Assembly (NCBI GenBank): GCA_035533755.1
Contig: DATLTC010000099.1
Coordinates: 1 to 64,000, forward strand
Reading direction: 5' to 3'
DNA from: Gemmatimonadaceae bacterium
Lineage (GTDB): Bacteria > Gemmatimonadota > Gemmatimonadetes > Gemmatimonadales > Gemmatimonadaceae
DNA length: 64,000 bases
Shown: positions 52,759 through 60,657 of the stretch, one piece after another
How the letters are laid out: each line of letters begins with the position of its first letter
Numbering within the stretch: position 1 is the stretch's first letter
Translations under genes and position numbers: made by a program
The notes under the pieces: model-generated
Databases searched by the model: none
The model's input: only the letters and a program-made list of their open reading frames with translations
Told to the model about the DNA's origin: nothing

Positions 52759-53049
52759 ATGGCCAAGACCAAGCAACGGCGGGGCGCGCTTTCATCGCCC
52801 AATACGCCGAGTCCATTCGAGGAAGCTCGCGACGAACTGTTCCAACACATCATGCGGTGTGACGTGAGCGGCTCCGAGCCGGAGCACCAGCAGGAATGGT
52901 TTGACGACACCATGAAGTACATGGTCGAGCGGTACCCGGAGCTGGCCGAAGGGGATTTCGAGGAGTTGAAGAAGCTCGGGCTGCGATTTGCCCAGCCGCC
53001 GAAATCCAATACGCCCGCCGATGAAGCTGGAGCCGCGAACGCGGCGTGA
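52759..53049 (+). CDS. Small acidic hypothetical protein
   Basis: The 96-residue product begins MAKTKQRRGALSSPNTPSPFEEAR and is predicted helical, with charged segments (EARDELFQHIMRCDV, EHQQEWFDDTMKYMVERYPEL, FEELKKLGLRFAQPP). There is no signal peptide or helix long enough for a membrane span. The pattern is that of a small conserved cytosolic protein, but I do not recognise the family. It is followed by a strong hairpin terminator. Confidence 0.6.
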   Translation: MAKTKQRRGALSSPNTPSPFEEARDELFQHIMRCDVSGSEPEHQQEWFDDTMKYMVERYPELAEGDFEELKKLGLRFAQPPKSNTPADEAGAANAA

Positions 53050-53196: not shown

Positions 53197-53679
53197 TCAT
53201 CGCCACAAGCTGTCTGACCGGCGCAGGACGATGCCCAGCCGGAGGCCGCCGCCCAGCCCGAGTTGGTACGCCACGCGCGTGCCGTGCGTGAGCGGCCCCT
53301 CGAAGTCGAGCGCCCCCACGAGGTAGGGCCGCACCTTGTCGCCGGCCTCGTACCGCGCGCTCACCCCACCGGCCAGCGACAGCCCCCAGCGCTCGCGCCC
53401 GAACGGATCGAGCAGCACGCGCATGAGCGCATCCACGCGGCCGGCGCCCACCAGCGCGTGGTTGCGGTCCACCGCGCCGGCCCCGGCGTCGAGTTCCAGC
53501 CGCTGATAGTAGCCGGCGCCGAGATTCACCCCCGCGCCCAGTTGGACGGAATACGGGCCGGGGCCCAGCACGTCGGCGCGGAATTCCGGGCGCGGCGCGA
53601 TGCGCTGGGCGCCGGCGGGCGCGGTCCACACCGTGGCGAGCGCCACGAGCGCCACGAGCGCCGCCGCGACACGGCTCAT
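53197..53679 (-). CDS. Secreted outer-membrane beta-barrel-like protein
   Basis: A 160-residue protein with a signal peptide ending PAGAQ near 25. Alternating strands follow (YSVQLGAGVNLGAGYYQRLE, WGLSLAGGVSARYEAG, VRPYLVGALDFEGPL, VAYQLGLGGGLRLGIVLRR). The pattern is that of a small eight-strand outer-membrane barrel, although it ends SDSLWR rather than a terminal Phe. It overlaps the upstream phosphatidyltransferase gene by 4 nt. Function is unknown. Confidence 0.6.
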   Translation of the reverse strand: MSRVAAALVALVALATVWTAPAGAQRIAPRPEFRADVLGPGPYSVQLGAGVNLGAGYYQRLELDAGAGAVDRNHALVGAGRVDALMRVLLDPFGRERWGLSLAGGVSARYEAGDKVRPYLVGALDFEGPLTHGTRVAYQLGLGGGLRLGIVLRRSDSLWR

Positions 53680-54203
53680 CGCACCCTGCCGCGCCACAGC
53701 GCGAACGTGTAGTCGGCGACGGCCCACAGGGACGTCGCGAGCACGGCGGCGAGCAGCGCGCGCACCCAGCCCGGCCGCACCATGATCGCCACGAAGGTGA
53801 GGAGTTGCAGCGAGGTCACGATCTTGCCCAGCCACCGGGCGCGGAACTCCACCGGCCGCAACCACGGGATGATGCGCGCCACGAGGAATCCCACGGCGGT
53901 CATCAGGTCGCGGAAGATGATGATGAAGTAGCCCGCGGTGCCGATCGCTCCGGTGAACAGAAACGTGGAGATGGCCACGAGCACGAACACGCGGTCGGCG
54001 AATGCGTCGAGGAGGGCCCCCCACGAGCTGGTGACCTGCGCGCGGCGCGCGATGTACCCGTCGAGGAAATCGGTGACGGCGGCCAGGCCGATCAGCGCGA
54101 TGCGGGTCTCCGTCGCATCGCTGCCCACGAAGGCCCCGGCCATGAGAAGCCGCGAGAACGAGATCCAATTGGGGAGGTGGTTGAGCCCCCGCCGAGCGTG
54201 CAT
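53676..54203 (-). CDS. CDP-alcohol phosphatidyltransferase
   Basis: From ATG 54203 the product is 175 residues with about six helices. The signature D-x2-D-G-x2-A-R-x8-G-x3-D-x3-D is complete in TDFLDGYIARRAQVTSSW followed by GALLDAFADR. N-terminal LNHLPNWISFSRLL is typical of PgsA-type enzymes. It would transfer a phosphatidyl group to glycerol-3-phosphate or another alcohol in phospholipid synthesis. Substrate within the family is not certain. An upstream in-frame ATG at 54248 is less likely. Confidence 0.85.
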   Translation of the reverse strand: MHARRGLNHLPNWISFSRLLMAGAFVGSDATETRIALIGLAAVTDFLDGYIARRAQVTSSWGALLDAFADRVFVLVAISTFLFTGAIGTAGYFIIIFRDLMTAVGFLVARIIPWLRPVEFRARWLGKIVTSLQLLTFVAIMVRPGWVRALLAAVLATSLWAVADYTFALWRGRVR

Positions 54204-54292
54204 GGCCCAAAAGCTACCGCCCGCCCCCCGTGCTTGCCACCGCTCCATGCGCGACCTAGCTTGCCACTTCCGCCCAGTTTCCCGAGGTCCGG

Positions 54293-54757
54293 ATGTCGGA
54301 AGTCATCGAGCTCTTGCGCCACGTGACGATCTTCAAGGGGCTCGACGACGAGGAGCTCCGGGCGGTGGCCGAGTTGTGCAAGGAGGAGAAGTTCGTCTCC
54401 GGGGAGTACATCTTCCACGAAGGCGAATCCGGCAACCGCCTGTACCTGATCACCGACGGCGAAGTGCGCATCAGCCGCGACGTGCCCGGCAGCGGCGAGG
54501 AGGCTCTGGCCATCCTCAAACCGGGCGCGCTGTTCGGCGAGATGGCCGTCTTCGACCGCAGCGAGCGCTCCACGCACGCCATCTCCAACGGCGGCACGAC
54601 GGCGCTCACGATCACCCGTCCGGACTTCGAGATGCTGCTGGACTTCGACCGCGAGCTGGCGTACAAGGTGCTGTGGGCCGTGGTGCGGCTGCTCTCCACG
54701 CGACTGCGCCAGACCAACGATTCGCTCCGGTCGTTCCTCGCCATGTCCATGTTCTGA
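54293..54757 (+). CDS. Stand-alone cyclic nucleotide-binding domain protein
   Basis: A 154-residue protein consisting of one cNMP-binding domain. LRHVTIFKGLDDEELRAVAE starts the domain. The hairpin GEYIFHEGESGNRLYLITDG and the phosphate-binding cassette LFGEMAVFDRSERSTHA follow, with a C-terminal helix. There is no helix-turn-helix, so it is not a CRP-type activator. The PBC has E-M in place and S-T after the arginine, compatible with ligand binding. It could be a regulatory subunit for another protein. Confidence 0.85.
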   Translation: MSEVIELLRHVTIFKGLDDEELRAVAELCKEEKFVSGEYIFHEGESGNRLYLITDGEVRISRDVPGSGEEALAILKPGALFGEMAVFDRSERSTHAISNGGTTALTITRPDFEMLLDFDRELAYKVLWAVVRLLSTRLRQTNDSLRSFLAMSMF

Positions 54758-54797: not shown

Positions 54798-56210
54798 ATG
54801 ACACGCCTACCGCTCCGCCTCGCCCTCCCCCCCCTCGCCCTCTTCGTTCTTCTCGCCGCTCCTCGCCCGCTCGCCGCCCAGACCACCGCGTCCACGCCCC
54901 TCGGTCCCACGCAGGGACTGGTGCGCGACGCCACCGTCACCGCGGTCCTCCACGACATCTCGCCCTCGAGACTCCGCGCCACCGACTCGGCGCTCGTCTC
55001 GTTCGGCACCCGGAACACGCTGTCCGACACGCTGTCGTCCACGCGCGGCATCGGCGCGGCGCGGCGCTGGCTGCACGCGCAGATGGAAGCGATCAGCAAG
55101 GACTGCGGCGGATGCCTGCGCGTGGAATACGACCCGGCGATGGTGGAGGTCATGCGCGATCCCGCGCGCCCCACGGTGAACGTGGTCAACGTCCTCGGCT
55201 GGCTGCCGGGCCGCGACACCACGCACGTGATCGTGATCGGCGGACACTACGACTCCTGCGTCTGCAGCCTCCCGGGCGGCGGGTACGACACCACCACCAC
55301 GGCCCCGGGCGCCGATGACGACGGCTCGGGCAGTTCGGCGGTGCTCGAACTCGCGCGCACGTTCGCCAAGCGCTACCCGCACGGCCTGAACGCCACGATC
55401 GTGTTCGCGATCTACGCCGGCGAGGAGCAGGGACTGCTCGGCTCCACCCATCTCGCCAAGCGGCTCAAGGACGGCGGGTACACGGTGCTCGCCGGGATGA
55501 CCGACGACATCGCGGGCGACGTCCAGGCCGAAGACGGGACCGTGGACTCCACGCACGTGCGGATCTTCGCCGCCGACCCCGACAACTCGCCGAGCCGCGA
55601 GCTGGGCCGGTACGTGTGGGCGCTCGGGCACCTCTACCTGCACGGCTTCACCGTGAATCCGATCTGGCGCATCGACCGCATCCAGCGCGGCGGCGACCAC
55701 ATGCCGTACGTGGAGAGCGGATGGGCGGGCCTGCGGTTCAGCGAACCGCTCGAGAACTACAACCACCAGCACCTGCCCACCGACCAGTTCCAGTTCGTGA
55801 ACTTCGGCTATCTGGCCAACGTGGCGCGGGCCAACGCGATGACGGTGGCGTCCATCGCCGCGGCGCCGATCACGCCGCAGGACGCGCGCGCCGTGCGCGA
55901 GGCGCACGGCGCGTCGGGCGGGCAGGCGTGGGCGCTGTCGTGGCAGCCGTCGCCCGGCGCAGTGAAGTACGAGGTGCTCATCCGCCGCACCATCTCGCCG
56001 CAGTACGAGCGCGTGGTGGACGTGGGCAACGTCACCAACTACGTGCTGCACACCCAGCTCGACGACGAATGGGCGGGCGTGCGCGCCGTGGATGCCAACG
56101 GCCACCGCTCGATGACGGCGCCGTTGCCCTCGCCGCCGCCGCTGCGTTCGTTCAACCGCGCCCCGGAACCGGGGCGCGGCGCGCGCGGCGGATCGGGCCC
56201 CACCCCATAA
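54798..56210 (+). CDS. Secreted M28 family metallopeptidase with fibronectin-like tail
   Basis: A 470-residue protein with a signal peptide ending LAAQ near 28. The M28 catalytic domain (about 120-350) shows the zinc ligands in IVIGGHYDS, GADDDGSGSS and IYAGEEQGLLGS. The later acidic ligand is near DIAGDV and the histidine near YNHQHLPTDQFQ. A C-terminal beta module (about 375-445, QAWALSWQPSPGAVKYEVLI) looks like an Fn3-type repeat. A Pro/Gly-rich end follows. It probably degrades peptides outside the inner membrane. It is separate from the lipoprotein M28 gene at 14597. Confidence 0.88.
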   Translation: MTRLPLRLALPPLALFVLLAAPRPLAAQTTASTPLGPTQGLVRDATVTAVLHDISPSRLRATDSALVSFGTRNTLSDTLSSTRGIGAARRWLHAQMEAISKDCGGCLRVEYDPAMVEVMRDPARPTVNVVNVLGWLPGRDTTHVIVIGGHYDSCVCSLPGGGYDTTTTAPGADDDGSGSSAVLELARTFAKRYPHGLNATIVFAIYAGEEQGLLGSTHLAKRLKDGGYTVLAGMTDDIAGDVQAEDGTVDSTHVRIFAADPDNSPSRELGRYVWALGHLYLHGFTVNPIWRIDRIQRGGDHMPYVESGWAGLRFSEPLENYNHQHLPTDQFQFVNFGYLANVARANAMTVASIAAAPITPQDARAVREAHGASGGQAWALSWQPSPGAVKYEVLIRRTISPQYERVVDVGNVTNYVLHTQLDDEWAGVRAVDANGHRSMTAPLPSPPPLRSFNRAPEPGRGARGGSGPTP

Positions 56211-56211
56211 C

Positions 56212-56553
56212 GTGTCCGCGGCCTTCACCCATCTCACGGCCGATCTGTCGGGCGTGCGCGACGAGCAGCTCCGCGATCTGCCGCTGATCACGGGACTGCT
56301 CATCGCGGCGGTGGGTGGGGCCGGGCTGTCGTCGCTCGCCCCGCCGGCGCTGCACGAGCGGCCGCGCGGCGGGATGACCGCCGTGCTGCTGCTCGAGCCC
56401 GGCCATCTGATCGTGCACGCGCTCCCCGACCGCGGCCGGTTGATCCTGGACATGCTCACGCTATCCACCCAGGAGCCGCTCAAGGCCCTGGAGGTGTTCA
56501 CGCGCCGGCTCGCGCCGCGCGACGTGCGCACCGAGATGCGCGCCATCGGGTAG
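56212..56553 (+). CDS. AdoMet decarboxylase (SpeD)-like protein lacking the pyruvoyl-forming serine
   Basis: A 113-residue protein with a GTG start 1 nt after the preceding stop. Length and pattern match bacterial SpeD: an N-terminal HLTADLSGVRDEQL, a middle GMTAVLLLEPGHLIVHALPD and then RGRLILDMLTLSTQEPLKAL. In active SpeD the E-S-H self-cleavage site supplies the pyruvoyl group. Here the serine position is Gly64 (PGHLIVH). The conserved cysteine in the D-x-F-T-C-G motif is also replaced (DMLTLST, position 84). His69 is kept. The protein is probably not a pyruvoyl decarboxylase. Its role is unknown. Confidence 0.6.
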   Translation: MSAAFTHLTADLSGVRDEQLRDLPLITGLLIAAVGGAGLSSLAPPALHERPRGGMTAVLLLEPGHLIVHALPDRGRLILDMLTLSTQEPLKALEVFTRRLAPRDVRTEMRAIG

Positions 56554-56647: not shown

Positions 56648-56992
56648 ATGTCGCCCGTCTTCCAAACCGTCGGCCTGCTCATCCTGTCGAACACGTTCAT
56701 GACCTTCGCGTGGTACGCGCACCTGCGGAATCTCGCCGACCGCAAATGGTACGTCGCCGCGATCGTGAGTTGGTCCATCGCATTCTTCGAATACATGTTC
56801 CAGGTGCCCGCCAACCGCATCGGCTACCAGGTGATGACGCTGGGCCAGCTCAAGATGATCCAGGAGATCGTCACGCTGTCGGTGTTCGTCCCGTTCGCGG
56901 TGTTCTACATGAAGCAGCCGCCGCGGCTGGACTTCCTGTGGGCCGGCCTGTGCATGATGGGCGCGGCGTACTTCATGTTCCGGGCGGCGTGA
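56648..56992 (+). CDS. DUF486 / DMT-type small membrane protein
   Basis: A 114-residue, four-helix membrane protein. Family markers include LLILSNTFMTFAWYAHL at the start, FFEYMFQVPANRIGY, and TLGQLKMIQEIVTLSVFVPF, typical of DUF486. Members resemble small multidrug-resistance/DMT proteins but have no known function. It has its own leader and is not coupled to neighbours. Confidence 0.8.
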   Translation: MSPVFQTVGLLILSNTFMTFAWYAHLRNLADRKWYVAAIVSWSIAFFEYMFQVPANRIGYQVMTLGQLKMIQEIVTLSVFVPFAVFYMKQPPRLDFLWAGLCMMGAAYFMFRAA

Positions 56993-57004: not shown

Positions 57005-59626
57005 TCACACCGCCTTGCCCACACCCCGCACGATGCCTTCCACGCGCCGCTCGGGATCGAAGTAGCGCCGCGCCAGGGCGAGGATCTGGTCGCGGGTCAC
57101 GGCGCGCACGCGGGCCTCGAACTCGCCCAACTCCTCCAGCCGACCGTTGAGCCAGGCGCCGATGGCGTCGCTCAACACCGCGCCGCCACGCTGCAGCCGA
57201 ATGGCGTGCACGCCGAGCGCGTACGTCTGCACGTGCGCCAGCTCCTCGGCGGTCACCGGCCCGTCGCACAGCTTGGCGAACTCCGCCAGGAGTCCGCGGC
57301 GCGCCACCTCCTCGCGGTCGGGCGACATCGCGATGTAGGCGCCGAACGTTCCCGCCAACCGGCGCTCCGACGCGAAGGCGTGCACGGTGTACGCCAACGA
57401 CTGCTTCTCGCGCAGCTCGTCAAAGAACCGGCCGCCGAGCCCGCTCGCGATCCCGGCCACCAGGCCCGCCGCGTAGCGGTCGTCGTCCACGCGCGAGGGT
57501 CCGGGAAAGAGCATCAGCAGCGCCGTCTGCGCCTTGTCGCGCGACTCCGCCGACGTCGCCACCCGTCGGGGCCATTCCGGCGCCGGCACCGCCGGCGGCT
57601 CGGCGTACGCGAGGTCGGCGAACGCCCGCGCCGCCTCGTCGGCCAGTGCGTCGGGATCGGCATCGCCCACGATGCCAACCACCGACGCCGACCGCAGCAC
57701 GCGCGACGCGTGCCAGCCGCGCGCCGCGTCGGCCGTGATCGCCCCGAGCGACGCCTCGGTGCCCTCGGTGGGCGTGCCGTAGGGATGCGACGGGAACGCC
57801 GCGGCGAGCGCCAGCAGCATCGGGTACCGGTACATGTCGTCGCGCCCCGAGATCACCTCGGAGATCGCGGTCGCCCGCTCGGTCTCCAGCGCGTCGTCGG
57901 AGATCGTCGCGTGCTGCGCCACGTCGGCCAGCAGGTCCACGGCGTCGGCGAACCCGCGCGCGGGCACCGAGATCGACCACCCGAAGCTCTCTCCCCCCAC
58001 GGCCGCGTTCACGCTGCCGCCCAGCATCTCGCCCGCCTCGGCGATCTCCGCCGCCGTGCGCCGCGCCGTGCCCTTGAGCGCCGCGTGGGCCATCAGCGCC
58101 GTGAGCCCCGCCGTCGCCCCGGTCTCCTCGGTGGCTCCGCCCTGCACGAACACGCCCACGTGCGTCATCGGCGAACCGTGCTTGCGCCGCACCAGCACCG
58201 GCACGCCGCGCGCCGTGCGGTACACGCGCACGCCCCACGCCTCGCGCTCGAACGCCGCGCCGGGCACCACCGCCCGGCGCCCCGGGGCGGCGCGGCGGGG
58301 CGCATGCGGCGCCGGAGCGGGCGTGACCGCACCGAGCAGGGCGTGCATGGCGGCCGTGTCGCCCGCCACGACCGGCGCCGACGCCGGCCGGTACACCAGG
58401 GCGCTGGCCTGCTCCGGGTCGAGATACCGCCGGGCCGCTTCGGTCACCTCCTGCGCCGTGCACGACAGCAGCCGGTCGTGGAACGCGTCGGCCATCTGCC
58501 AACCGCCCAGCGCCTCCCACGCGGCCAGGTGATTGGCCTGCCCCTCCATGTCCTCGAGCCGCCGGATCATGCGCGCGTCGAGGATGCGTTGCGCGCGGTC
58601 CACCTCGGCGGGGCCCACGCCGTGTTCGCGCACGCTCAGGATCTCCGCCCACGCCGCGCGCGCCGCGTCGGCCAGCGTGCCGGGCTGGCCCTCGGCCTGC
58701 ACCACGAACACGCCCAACTCGGTGGGCGTGTAGTCATACGCCGTCACCGACGACGCCAACGTCCGCTCGCGCACGGCGCGGTAGAGGCGCGACGCGCGTC
58801 CCGTGCCGAGCACGGTGCCCAGCAATTCCAGCGCCGGCGTGTGGGGATGCAGCGTCGAGACCGTGCGCCAGCCGAACGCCAGCTGCGCCTGGGTGATGTC
58901 GCCGCTCAACTCGCGATAGCGGAATCCCGGCAGTCCCTCCTCCGAGGCTCCGGGCGCGCGGCGCGGCGCGCCGGCGGGCGCGTCGCCGTAGCGCGTCTCG
59001 ATCTGCCGCATCGCGTCGTCCACGTCCACGTCGCCGACCACGGTGAGGATGGTGGTGCTCGGCCGGTAGAAGTTGCGATAGAACCCCGCGACGTCGTAGC
59101 GCGTGAGCCGCCGCAGCCCGTCTTCGCGGCCGATGCGCCAGCGGCGCATGCGGTGTCGATCGAACAGCAGCTCGTGCAGGGTCTCCGTGGCCACGGCGTT
59201 CGGGTTGTCGGCCTTGCGCTTGGCTTCCTGGATGATGACCTCCAGTTCGCGCCCCAACTCGCCCGCGTCGATGAGCGAATTGCCATAGGCGTCGGCCTGG
59301 ATGTCGAGCGCCTCCGCGAACCCCGACGACGGCACCACGGTGTAGTACACGGTGTGGTCGTAGATCGTGCCGGCGTTGAGATAGCCGCCCACCGCCTTGG
59401 TCTGCTTGGCGATCTCGCCCACGCCGCGCCGCGCCGTGCCCTTGAAGTACATGTGCTCGAGCACGTGCGCGATGCCCACGACGTCGTCCGTCTCATCGAA
59501 GTAGCCGGCCTTCACGTGGGTGACGATCGCCACCACGGGCGCCGAGTCGTCGCGGCGGACGAGCACGGTGAGGCCGTTGGGCAGCACGCGGCGGTGGACC
59601 GTGCGCGGGTCGAGGAGTTGGGTCAT
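57005..59626 (-). CDS. M16 family zinc peptidase, two fused inverzincin modules
   Basis: From ATG 59626 the product is 873 residues. The first M16 module (1-430) has the inverted zinc motif HVLEH near residues 52-56 and the distal glutamate in ELEVIIQEAKRKADN. The second module (about 455-870) has lost the motif (ALMAHAALKGT instead of H-x-x-E-H), as is normal for the non-catalytic half of pitrilysin-type enzymes. No signal peptide is obvious at this start. It probably degrades medium-size peptides. Two TPR protein genes lie upstream on the same strand, 44 nt away. Confidence 0.9.
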   Translation of the reverse strand: MTQLLDPRTVHRRVLPNGLTVLVRRDDSAPVVAIVTHVKAGYFDETDDVVGIAHVLEHMYFKGTARRGVGEIAKQTKAVGGYLNAGTIYDHTVYYTVVPSSGFAEALDIQADAYGNSLIDAGELGRELEVIIQEAKRKADNPNAVATETLHELLFDRHRMRRWRIGREDGLRRLTRYDVAGFYRNFYRPSTTILTVVGDVDVDDAMRQIETRYGDAPAGAPRRAPGASEEGLPGFRYRELSGDITQAQLAFGWRTVSTLHPHTPALELLGTVLGTGRASRLYRAVRERTLASSVTAYDYTPTELGVFVVQAEGQPGTLADAARAAWAEILSVREHGVGPAEVDRAQRILDARMIRRLEDMEGQANHLAAWEALGGWQMADAFHDRLLSCTAQEVTEAARRYLDPEQASALVYRPASAPVVAGDTAAMHALLGAVTPAPAPHAPRRAAPGRRAVVPGAAFEREAWGVRVYRTARGVPVLVRRKHGSPMTHVGVFVQGGATEETGATAGLTALMAHAALKGTARRTAAEIAEAGEMLGGSVNAAVGGESFGWSISVPARGFADAVDLLADVAQHATISDDALETERATAISEVISGRDDMYRYPMLLALAAAFPSHPYGTPTEGTEASLGAITADAARGWHASRVLRSASVVGIVGDADPDALADEAARAFADLAYAEPPAVPAPEWPRRVATSAESRDKAQTALLMLFPGPSRVDDDRYAAGLVAGIASGLGGRFFDELREKQSLAYTVHAFASERRLAGTFGAYIAMSPDREEVARRGLLAEFAKLCDGPVTAEELAHVQTYALGVHAIRLQRGGAVLSDAIGAWLNGRLEELGEFEARVRAVTRDQILALARRYFDPERRVEGIVRGVGKAV

Positions 59627-59670
59627 GATGGGGAATGATACGCGGGCGTCCGAGGACGCGCGCCGGCGGG

Positions 59671-60657
59671 TCAGGGCGCCGGGTCGGGCGGGGTGGAGCC
59701 GGTCACGCAGGCCGTCCAGCGCCCGGGGCCGGCGCGCGTGATCCACCGTTCGCCCTCGTCCACGCGCCCCAGCTTGATCAGCGTGCACCCCAGATCGCCC
59801 TGGGCCACGAGGTCTTCGGGGTTGGCCGCCACGGCGCGCACGTAGAACTTGCGGGCCAGCTCGTAGTTGTGCGACGTGAACAGGTACGCGCCCATCTCGC
59901 GCAGCGCGAGGGCGTTGGTCGGGTCGGCGGTGATCGCGAGCTGCAGCTCCTCGTCGGCGAGCGGCAGGTTGCCCACGTCGCGCGCCATCCGCGCCAGGTA
60001 CACGTGCGGCAGCGCGTACGAGGGATCGATGAGCAGGGCGCGGCGAAAGTCGTGCGCCGCGGCCGCGGTGTCGCCACGATCGAACTCGGTGATCGCCAGA
60101 TTCATCACCGCGGCGCGACGCGGGCCGCCGAACCAGTAGTAGGCGGCCGCGCCGACGCCGGCCACGACGAGGGCCACGAGAATCGTGCGCCAGCCCACCC
60201 GGCGCGCGCGGGGTTCGTCGGGCGGCGTGGTGATCGAGGGCATGGCGGGCGGTGGCGCGGGGTGGGCCGCGGCCGGAGGCTGGAGCGGTGGCGCGGCAGC
60301 GGGCGGTGGAGCGAGCGAGCCGTCGAGCGCGGCGATCGCCGCGCGCGCCGCCGCGAGGTCGGCGGCGTCGGGCCGGTAGCCCGCGTCGCGCAGCCGTTCG
60401 CGGGCGGCGTGGAACGCCGCGAGCGCGTTGGCCTGTTCGAAGGTGAGCAACTGCCGCTGGCGCGCGTCACGCACCAAGTCGGTGCCGGTGGCGGCGCTGC
60501 CGCCGATCAGCTTGCGCAGCGCGTCCTCCACCGACACCCACGCGGCGATCAGGTCGGCGGTCAGCTCTTCAGGACGGCGGGATGGATCGAGCCGACCGAT
60601 CATCGTCCGGGCGGCGCCAAGCGCGGCCAGCGCCGCCCGGGTCTCGGTGGAACTCAC
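59671..60657 (-). CDS. Membrane-anchored TPR protein
   Basis: A 328-residue protein. The helical N-terminal cytoplasmic part (1-110) is followed by a Pro/Ala-rich linker at about 112-148, one transmembrane helix (about 155-173) and four to five TPR units from about 180 to 310 (ITEFDRGDTAAAAHDFRRAL, PHVYLARMARDVGNLPLADE, LREMGAYLFTSHNYELARKF). The C-terminal tail carries one cysteine. Its start overlaps the stop of the upstream TPR gene by 4 nt. It probably acts as a protein-assembly scaffold. Partners are unknown. Confidence 0.7.
   Translation of the reverse strand: MSSTETRAALAALGAARTMIGRLDPSRRPEELTADLIAAWVSVEDALRKLIGGSAATGTDLVRDARQRQLLTFEQANALAAFHAARERLRDAGYRPDAADLAAARAAIAALDGSLAPPPAAAPPLQPPAAAHPAPPPAMPSITTPPDEPRARRVGWRTILVALVVAGVGAAAYYWFGGPRRAAVMNLAITEFDRGDTAAAAHDFRRALLIDPSYALPHVYLARMARDVGNLPLADEELQLAITADPTNALALREMGAYLFTSHNYELARKFYVRAVAANPEDLVAQGDLGCTLIKLGRVDEGERWITRAGPGRWTACVTGSTPPDPAP

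Follow-up and report, generated by a model that had tools for sequence, protein, structure and literature searches.

The window analysed here, a 64,000-nucleotide stretch of DNA from a Gemmatimonadaceae bacterium, encodes a homologue of the AdoMet decarboxylase (AdoMetDC) SpeD in which both the serine that forms the pyruvoyl cofactor and the catalytic cysteine have been replaced. The loss of the serine is ancient and happened once, and it is common to a clade that extends over two families of one order, within which the gene is under purifying selection and keeps a conserved place in the genome. Canonical SpeD and SpeE are absent from most of the carriers. We tentatively favour the reading that this is a non-catalytic protein of SpeD fold, which left polyamine synthesis before the two families split and which binds another protein as a small cytosolic dimer.

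A SpeD homologue without serine and cysteine

The open reading frame, which starts 1 nt past the stop of the preceding M28 peptidase gene (Table 1), is a SpeD homologue. Residues 7-108 match nearly the full Pfam AdoMet_dc profile (PF02675; 54.9 bits, E 1.3e-14, cut-off 25), and the score falls short of the NCBIfam equivalog for working AdoMetDC, TIGR03330 (44.4 vs 75.65 bits). A profile search of the PDB with the window protein and 22 relatives led to the SpeD proteins of T. maritima and A. aeolicus. The AlphaFold model, for which the same window protein and 22 relatives were the input, is of high confidence (pLDDT 95.6, pTM 0.86) and superposes on T. maritima SpeD (1vr7_B) with a TM of 0.94 and a Z of 19.9 (1.4 A over 112 residues, 24% identity). 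Every one of its top structure matches in the PDB is a SpeD (1vr7, 1tlu, 1tmi and 2iii), and 1tmi is the S63A mutant that does not process itself. The likeness to SpeD along the whole length, which the first-pass annotation had seen by eye, is thus borne out by both the Pfam match and the superposition, and the predicted structure is the SpeD fold rather than another.

Table 1. Positions and strands of the features discussed, numbered from the first letter of the window
Feature	Positions	Strand	Remarks
SpeD-fold protein without catalytic serine and cysteine	56212..56553	+	113 aa, GTG start
Helix 1, model residues 23-36	56278..56319	+	AlphaFold model
Gly64 codon GGC, at the place of the pyruvoyl serine (Ser63 of T. 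maritima)	56401..56403	+	alignment
Codons of His65 to His69 (H64 to H68 of T. maritima)	56404..56418	+	alignment
Leu84 codon, aligned with the catalytic Cys83 of T. maritima	56461..56463	+	alignment
M28 peptidase gene, directly upstream	54798..56210	+	at 21/79 loci read
Stand-alone cyclic-nucleotide-binding-domain (cNMP) protein	54293..54757	+	48/79 family, 14/20 sister-family loci
DMT_6 (DUF486) membrane protein	56648..56992	+	Pfam
M16 peptidase, conserved flank	57005..59788	-	matched at 68/79 loci
CDP-alcohol phosphatidyltransferase, conserved flank	53676..54248	-	62/79 loci
Small conserved protein X96, no Pfam match	52759..53049	+	96 aa, 70/79 loci

Alignment with T. maritima SpeD confirms what had been claimed for the active site, namely that Gly64 stands where the pyruvoyl serine should be and that the conserved cysteine is gone, its place being taken by Leu84. 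Pro63 replaces Glu62, the residue before the serine in SpeD. The claim that the histidine is kept holds in full for His65, which is invariant in 99/99 relatives, and only in part for His69, which is also retained in the window protein and is found in 93/99. These two correspond to His64 and His68 of T. maritima.

Serine loss, pocket residues and selection

Across 179 family genomes, which represent 35 genera, SpeD-type matches turned up in 93 genomes and 22 genera. Among the 106 matches listed, 79 are of the window kind (one per genome, E 1.4e-15 or lower), and all 79 were read. The other 27 are weak matches, and the 23 of these that were read (all but G062, G069, G070 and the second match of G076) are canonical without exception (ESHL..H, FCC). 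A search of 395 Gemmatimonadota genomes added 32 matches of the window kind, at E 7e-17 or lower, from a sister family that belongs to the same order. We read 20 of these, along with a subset of the weak phylum matches outside the family. The named relatives of the window protein are MAGs of Gemmatimonadaceae or of Gemmatimonadetes/Gemmatimonadota.

The substitutions seen in the window are common to its relatives: the serine is absent from 99/99 and the cysteine from 98/99 (78/79 in the family, where G131 is the exception, and 20/20 in the sister family). Both residues are present in all canonical controls (23/23 in the family and 10/10 elsewhere in the phylum), and six relatives in family f9 of the same class retain them as well (6/6). 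The tree, which has 139 rows, groups the 99 dead proteins into a single clade (support 99/99) that is divided into the two families, and the canonical SpeD proteins and the six serine-bearing relatives lie outside this clade. The fine placement in this tree is unsure, because it is built on few columns (108), is rooted at the midpoint and has some long branches, including that of the window row (end branch 0.82). On the tree, the loss of the serine is a single change. No relative within the clade has the serine, and, because its loss is common to the whole clade, a recent mutation or a sequencing error is ruled out.

The six f9 relatives (L161-L166) have a distinctive RESHFAIHTYPE motif beside their intact serine and cysteine. 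The tree places them apart from the canonical group, and they may represent a further neofunctionalised branch.

At the serine site the 99 relatives have Gly in 60, Cys in 37, Ala in 2 and Ser in none. The sister family is uniform (Gly in 20/20), and the 79 family sequences divide into Gly 40, Cys 37 and Ala 2. Cysteine is the sole state in 15 of the 21 genera read, and the residue that follows is histidine in 79/79 family sequences. The combination of an invariant histidine with a cysteine at this site could mean catalysis, by a new, pyruvoyl-free enzyme that uses the histidine pair and the serine-site cysteine. Counter to this, the site is not a cysteine in most of the clade, the window protein included, and the Gly/Cys/Ala state changes six times on the tree inside the clade. 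The histidine pair is also broken in places: the H68 site, which is His in 20/20 of the sister family, is His in 73/79 of the family, Gln in 1 and Arg in 5, the last being all five members of one genus. We regard a new enzyme as quite improbable.

The columns of F49, S55, E62, H68, E72 and C83 are those that we take to form the substrate pocket and active site of T. maritima SpeD. Among the 99 dead sequences F49 is retained in none, C83 in 1, E62 in 6 (one family sequence and five from the sister family) and E72 in 24, whereas P71 is retained in 93, D79 in 96 and H64 in all 99. Judged by these columns, the substrate pocket is eroded across the clade, and the protein probably does not process itself and would be catalytically inactive.

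Alternatively, a dead pocket may still bind a small molecule, whether AdoMet, a polyamine or a new ligand, and report its presence to a partner. Such a ligand sensor would account for the invariant His65, the nearly invariant His69 and the retention of P71 and D79, and a stand-alone cyclic-nucleotide-binding protein lies upstream at many of the loci. However, F49 and E72, presumably the contacts of adenine and ribose in T. maritima SpeD, are not conserved, and active SpeD also conserves H64 and P71, whose role may be no more than to hold the fold. We consider a sensor unlikely.

Selection was estimated from within-genus pairs with saturated pairs dropped (n=295). The ratio w is below 0.5 in 295/295 of them, with a median of 0.166; in the 58 pairs of more than 85% identity the median is 0.095 and the maximum 0.207. 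In other words, the gene is under purifying selection within genera. A cross-genus run of dN/dS on all 2631 pairs below a dS of 1.5 had a median w of 0.468 and included values above 1, among them 1.117 for G023-G156 and 1.034 for G002-G023; we judged its dS values to be distorted by saturation at GC-rich third positions. Within-genus pairs were used alone because, in our judgement, this extreme third-position GC would make cross-genus dS unreliable. The w values come from pairs of relatives, and the selection on the window copy itself is not measurable because no congener has a copy.

These results bear on whether the protein is a decaying relic without function. Arguing for decay, the gene has been cleanly deleted in two congeners of the window genome (L219 and L220, those of three that are resolved at the locus), where DUF486 comes straight after the cNMP gene and the pair of M28 and SpeD-like genes is cleanly absent. 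Several genera likewise keep the locus without the gene, as seen in three genomes of other genera that were picked as gene-less. The window copy itself lacks the glycosidase-like neighbour described below, has Ile in place of the near-invariant Arg112 and sits on a long end branch. Arguing against decay, w does not exceed its maximum of 0.207 in the closest pairs, none of the 79 family matches contains an internal stop and the fold is predicted with high confidence. A relic is, on our assessment, very unlikely. The suggestion in the first-pass annotation of a pseudoenzyme or a protein of new function gains support from the ancient loss of the serine (99/99) together with the purifying selection.

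Polyamine genes in the carriers

The window genome (3.25 Mb, 98% complete) has a single AdoMet_dc match, which is the SpeD-like frame itself; a second one, as a candidate for an active SpeD, is absent. Canonical SpeE was not found in it by a search with the Spermine_synth profile. It does encode SpeA, an arginine decarboxylase that scores 868 bits (cut-off 369), together with a protein of homospermidine biosynthesis at 561 bits (cut-off 450), and no match to the arginase/agmatinase family is present. According to PMC10407285, the deoxyhypusine-synthase homologue SpeY provides a homospermidine route that needs no SpeD. We infer that the host uses a route of this SpeY type.

The Spermine_synth profile also matches, at 64-78 bits, open frames of 844-1251 aa in the window genome (G000:C59 and G000:C64) that are unlike ordinary SpeE.

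Looking across the family, canonical SpeD is present in 38 of the 179 genomes, the dead kind in 79 and both in 16; therefore 63 of the 79 carriers are without canonical SpeD. The two kinds were told apart by score, canonical copies (of which 23 were read) having at least 71 bits and dead ones at most 67. SpeE-type matches to Spermine_synth (at least 111 bits) occur in 39 genomes, namely each of the 38 that have canonical SpeD, plus G067; such a match occurs in 0 of the 63 carriers without canonical SpeD.

This distribution weighs heavily on the analogy, drawn in the first-pass annotation, with the trypanosomatid prozyme, in which the SpeD-like protein would form a heterodimer with an active SpeD and activate it. 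For T. brucei it is established that a dead paralogue activates its partner in this way (PMC5201418), and the 16 family carriers of both kinds could in principle accommodate it. The other 63, the window genome among them, have no canonical SpeD to activate and no SpeE-type match, and none of the 23 canonical family copies read lies at the locus of the dead gene. The prozyme reading is already refuted for the SpeD-less carriers, unless an unrelated AdoMet decarboxylase is present there, and for the clade as a whole we hold it to be extremely improbable. Because the SpeD-like protein passes the Pfam cut-off for AdoMetDC, polyamine pathways in these bacteria may be misread.

The locus, candidate partners and known systems

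The gene occupies a conserved locus in both families, in the order X96, CDP-alcohol phosphatidyltransferase, often the cNMP protein, the SpeD-like gene and then M16 or TPR, with no polyamine gene seen among them. In 61/79 family loci a gene for a glycosidase-like membrane protein lies directly downstream of the SpeD-like gene. This protein (e.g. L036:7642-9174 and L046:6091-7611) is about 500 aa long and matches nothing in Pfam or, by sequence, in the PDB; in its model (pLDDT 84.2) a long-helical N-terminal part, which we read as membrane helices, precedes a TIM barrel like that of glycoside hydrolases (Z about 25). The distance from the SpeD-like stop to its start is -4 to +40 nt in 53 of the 59 cases measured, 23 of which are overlaps of 4 nt. 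In the sister family it is a DoxX gene that overlaps the SpeD-like stop by 4 nt, in 12/20 loci, and this gene is absent in the other 8. Short gene overlaps are frequent in compact bacterial operons.

No neighbour is a universal partner, since the cNMP, M28 and DoxX genes come and go among loci. At 18/79 loci, the window included, the glycosidase-like gene is missing or was not seen (2 of these loci lie near contig ends), and it is present in 72/100 genomes without a SpeD-like gene; thus neither of the two genes needs the other. Co-occurrence as proof of a partnership was accordingly rejected (61/79 carriers vs 72/100 non-carriers). The cNMP protein was rejected as a fixed partner, being found at only 48/79 family and 14/20 sister-family loci, some of these counts being affected by contig ends.

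Two further observations concern these neighbours. The stand-alone cNMP protein has no effector domain and is 67-90% identical in relatives of both families. The glycosidase-like protein is present in 133/179 family genomes and was not found in that of the window.

At the window locus, DMT_6 (DUF486) occupies the place that the glycosidase-like membrane gene has in most relatives. Because that neighbour is missing, the window copy either works by itself, has a different partner or is being lost. A contaminating contig was ruled out, since the contig fits the genus: the M16 gene next door shares 78% and 73% identity with its counterparts in two congeners, and the flanking DNA aligns at 81-83% identity.

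The helix 1 stretch (T. maritima 24-38) is free of charge in 89/99 relatives, whereas the mean number of charged residues is 2.65 across the 23 rows of canonical family SpeD, 2.67 across the six serine-bearing relatives and 3.3 across the 10 rows of other canonical SpeD. The charges of helix 2 are retained in the dead proteins. We take the helices to lie on the outside of the SpeD dimer, and an uncharged helix 1 is compatible with a new apolar contact.

On our favoured reading, the gene would have been inherited vertically in Gemmatimonadaceae and the sister family, and its exit from polyamine synthesis would predate the split of the two. The SpeD fold would persist as the scaffold of a small cytosolic dimer that binds another protein, with the uncharged helix 1 as the putative docking face. 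The likely partners would be the membrane proteins encoded by genes that overlap the SpeD-like stop or begin just behind it, and the role may be regulatory or structural, that of an adaptor or regulator outside polyamine synthesis. In its most specific form, this reading has the order domesticating a dead SpeD as a free-standing subunit that docks to or regulates the glycosidase-like membrane protein in one family and DoxX in the other. We offer that form as a possibility on the doubtful side. If true, one cytosolic module has been hooked by start-stop overlap to different membrane proteins in two families.

Dead relatives of AdoMetDC are known from trypanosomes and as the fused domain of animal spermine synthase, in both cases within polyamine synthesis. 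The present case is a dead SpeD that is bacterial and free-standing, old, widespread in two families, under selection and mostly found in SpeD-less genomes. Our literature searches, which took in only a minority of the subscription journals, turned up no earlier description of a free-standing, serine-less SpeD from a bacterium. The protein apparently works outside polyamine synthesis, and the strong selection on it points to a novel role of an old fold, one that is not enzymatic. It thus provides a small system for asking what a fold does after its catalysis is lost.

Compared with class 1b SpeD (T. maritima 1tlu/1vr7, A. aeolicus 2iii), the SpeD-like protein keeps the full-length fold, the residues corresponding to His64, His68 and Pro71 and an R-x-R-G-like C-terminal end. 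It differs in having neither the pyruvoyl serine nor the catalytic cysteine, in its apparently eroded pocket and uncharged helix 1, and in residing mostly in SpeE-less genomes. The 1tmi S63A mutant has Ala at the serine site, as do 2/99 relatives. Other SpeD relatives in SpeE-less genomes are the arginine and ornithine decarboxylases SpeDA and SpeDC, which PMC10407285 describes as pyruvoyl-dependent, whereas the window protein is without the serine for that cofactor. The trypanosomatid prozyme (5tvm) is a catalytically dead AdoMetDC relative kept in the genome (PMC5201418), as the window protein probably is too; the prozyme is, however, the paralogue and partner of an active enzyme in the same cell, which most of the SpeD-like carriers do not have. 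The N-terminal domain of animal spermine synthase (3c6k) matches the window model with a Z of 12.0. According to PMC12803844, this domain has the SpeD fold, has lost the AdoMetDC function and has a structural role in dimer formation. It is fused to an aminopropyltransferase and remains within polyamine synthesis, whereas the window protein stands alone, unfused, at 113 aa. The use of the SpeD fold as a scaffold, on our favoured reading, would parallel that of this dead AdoMetDC domain.
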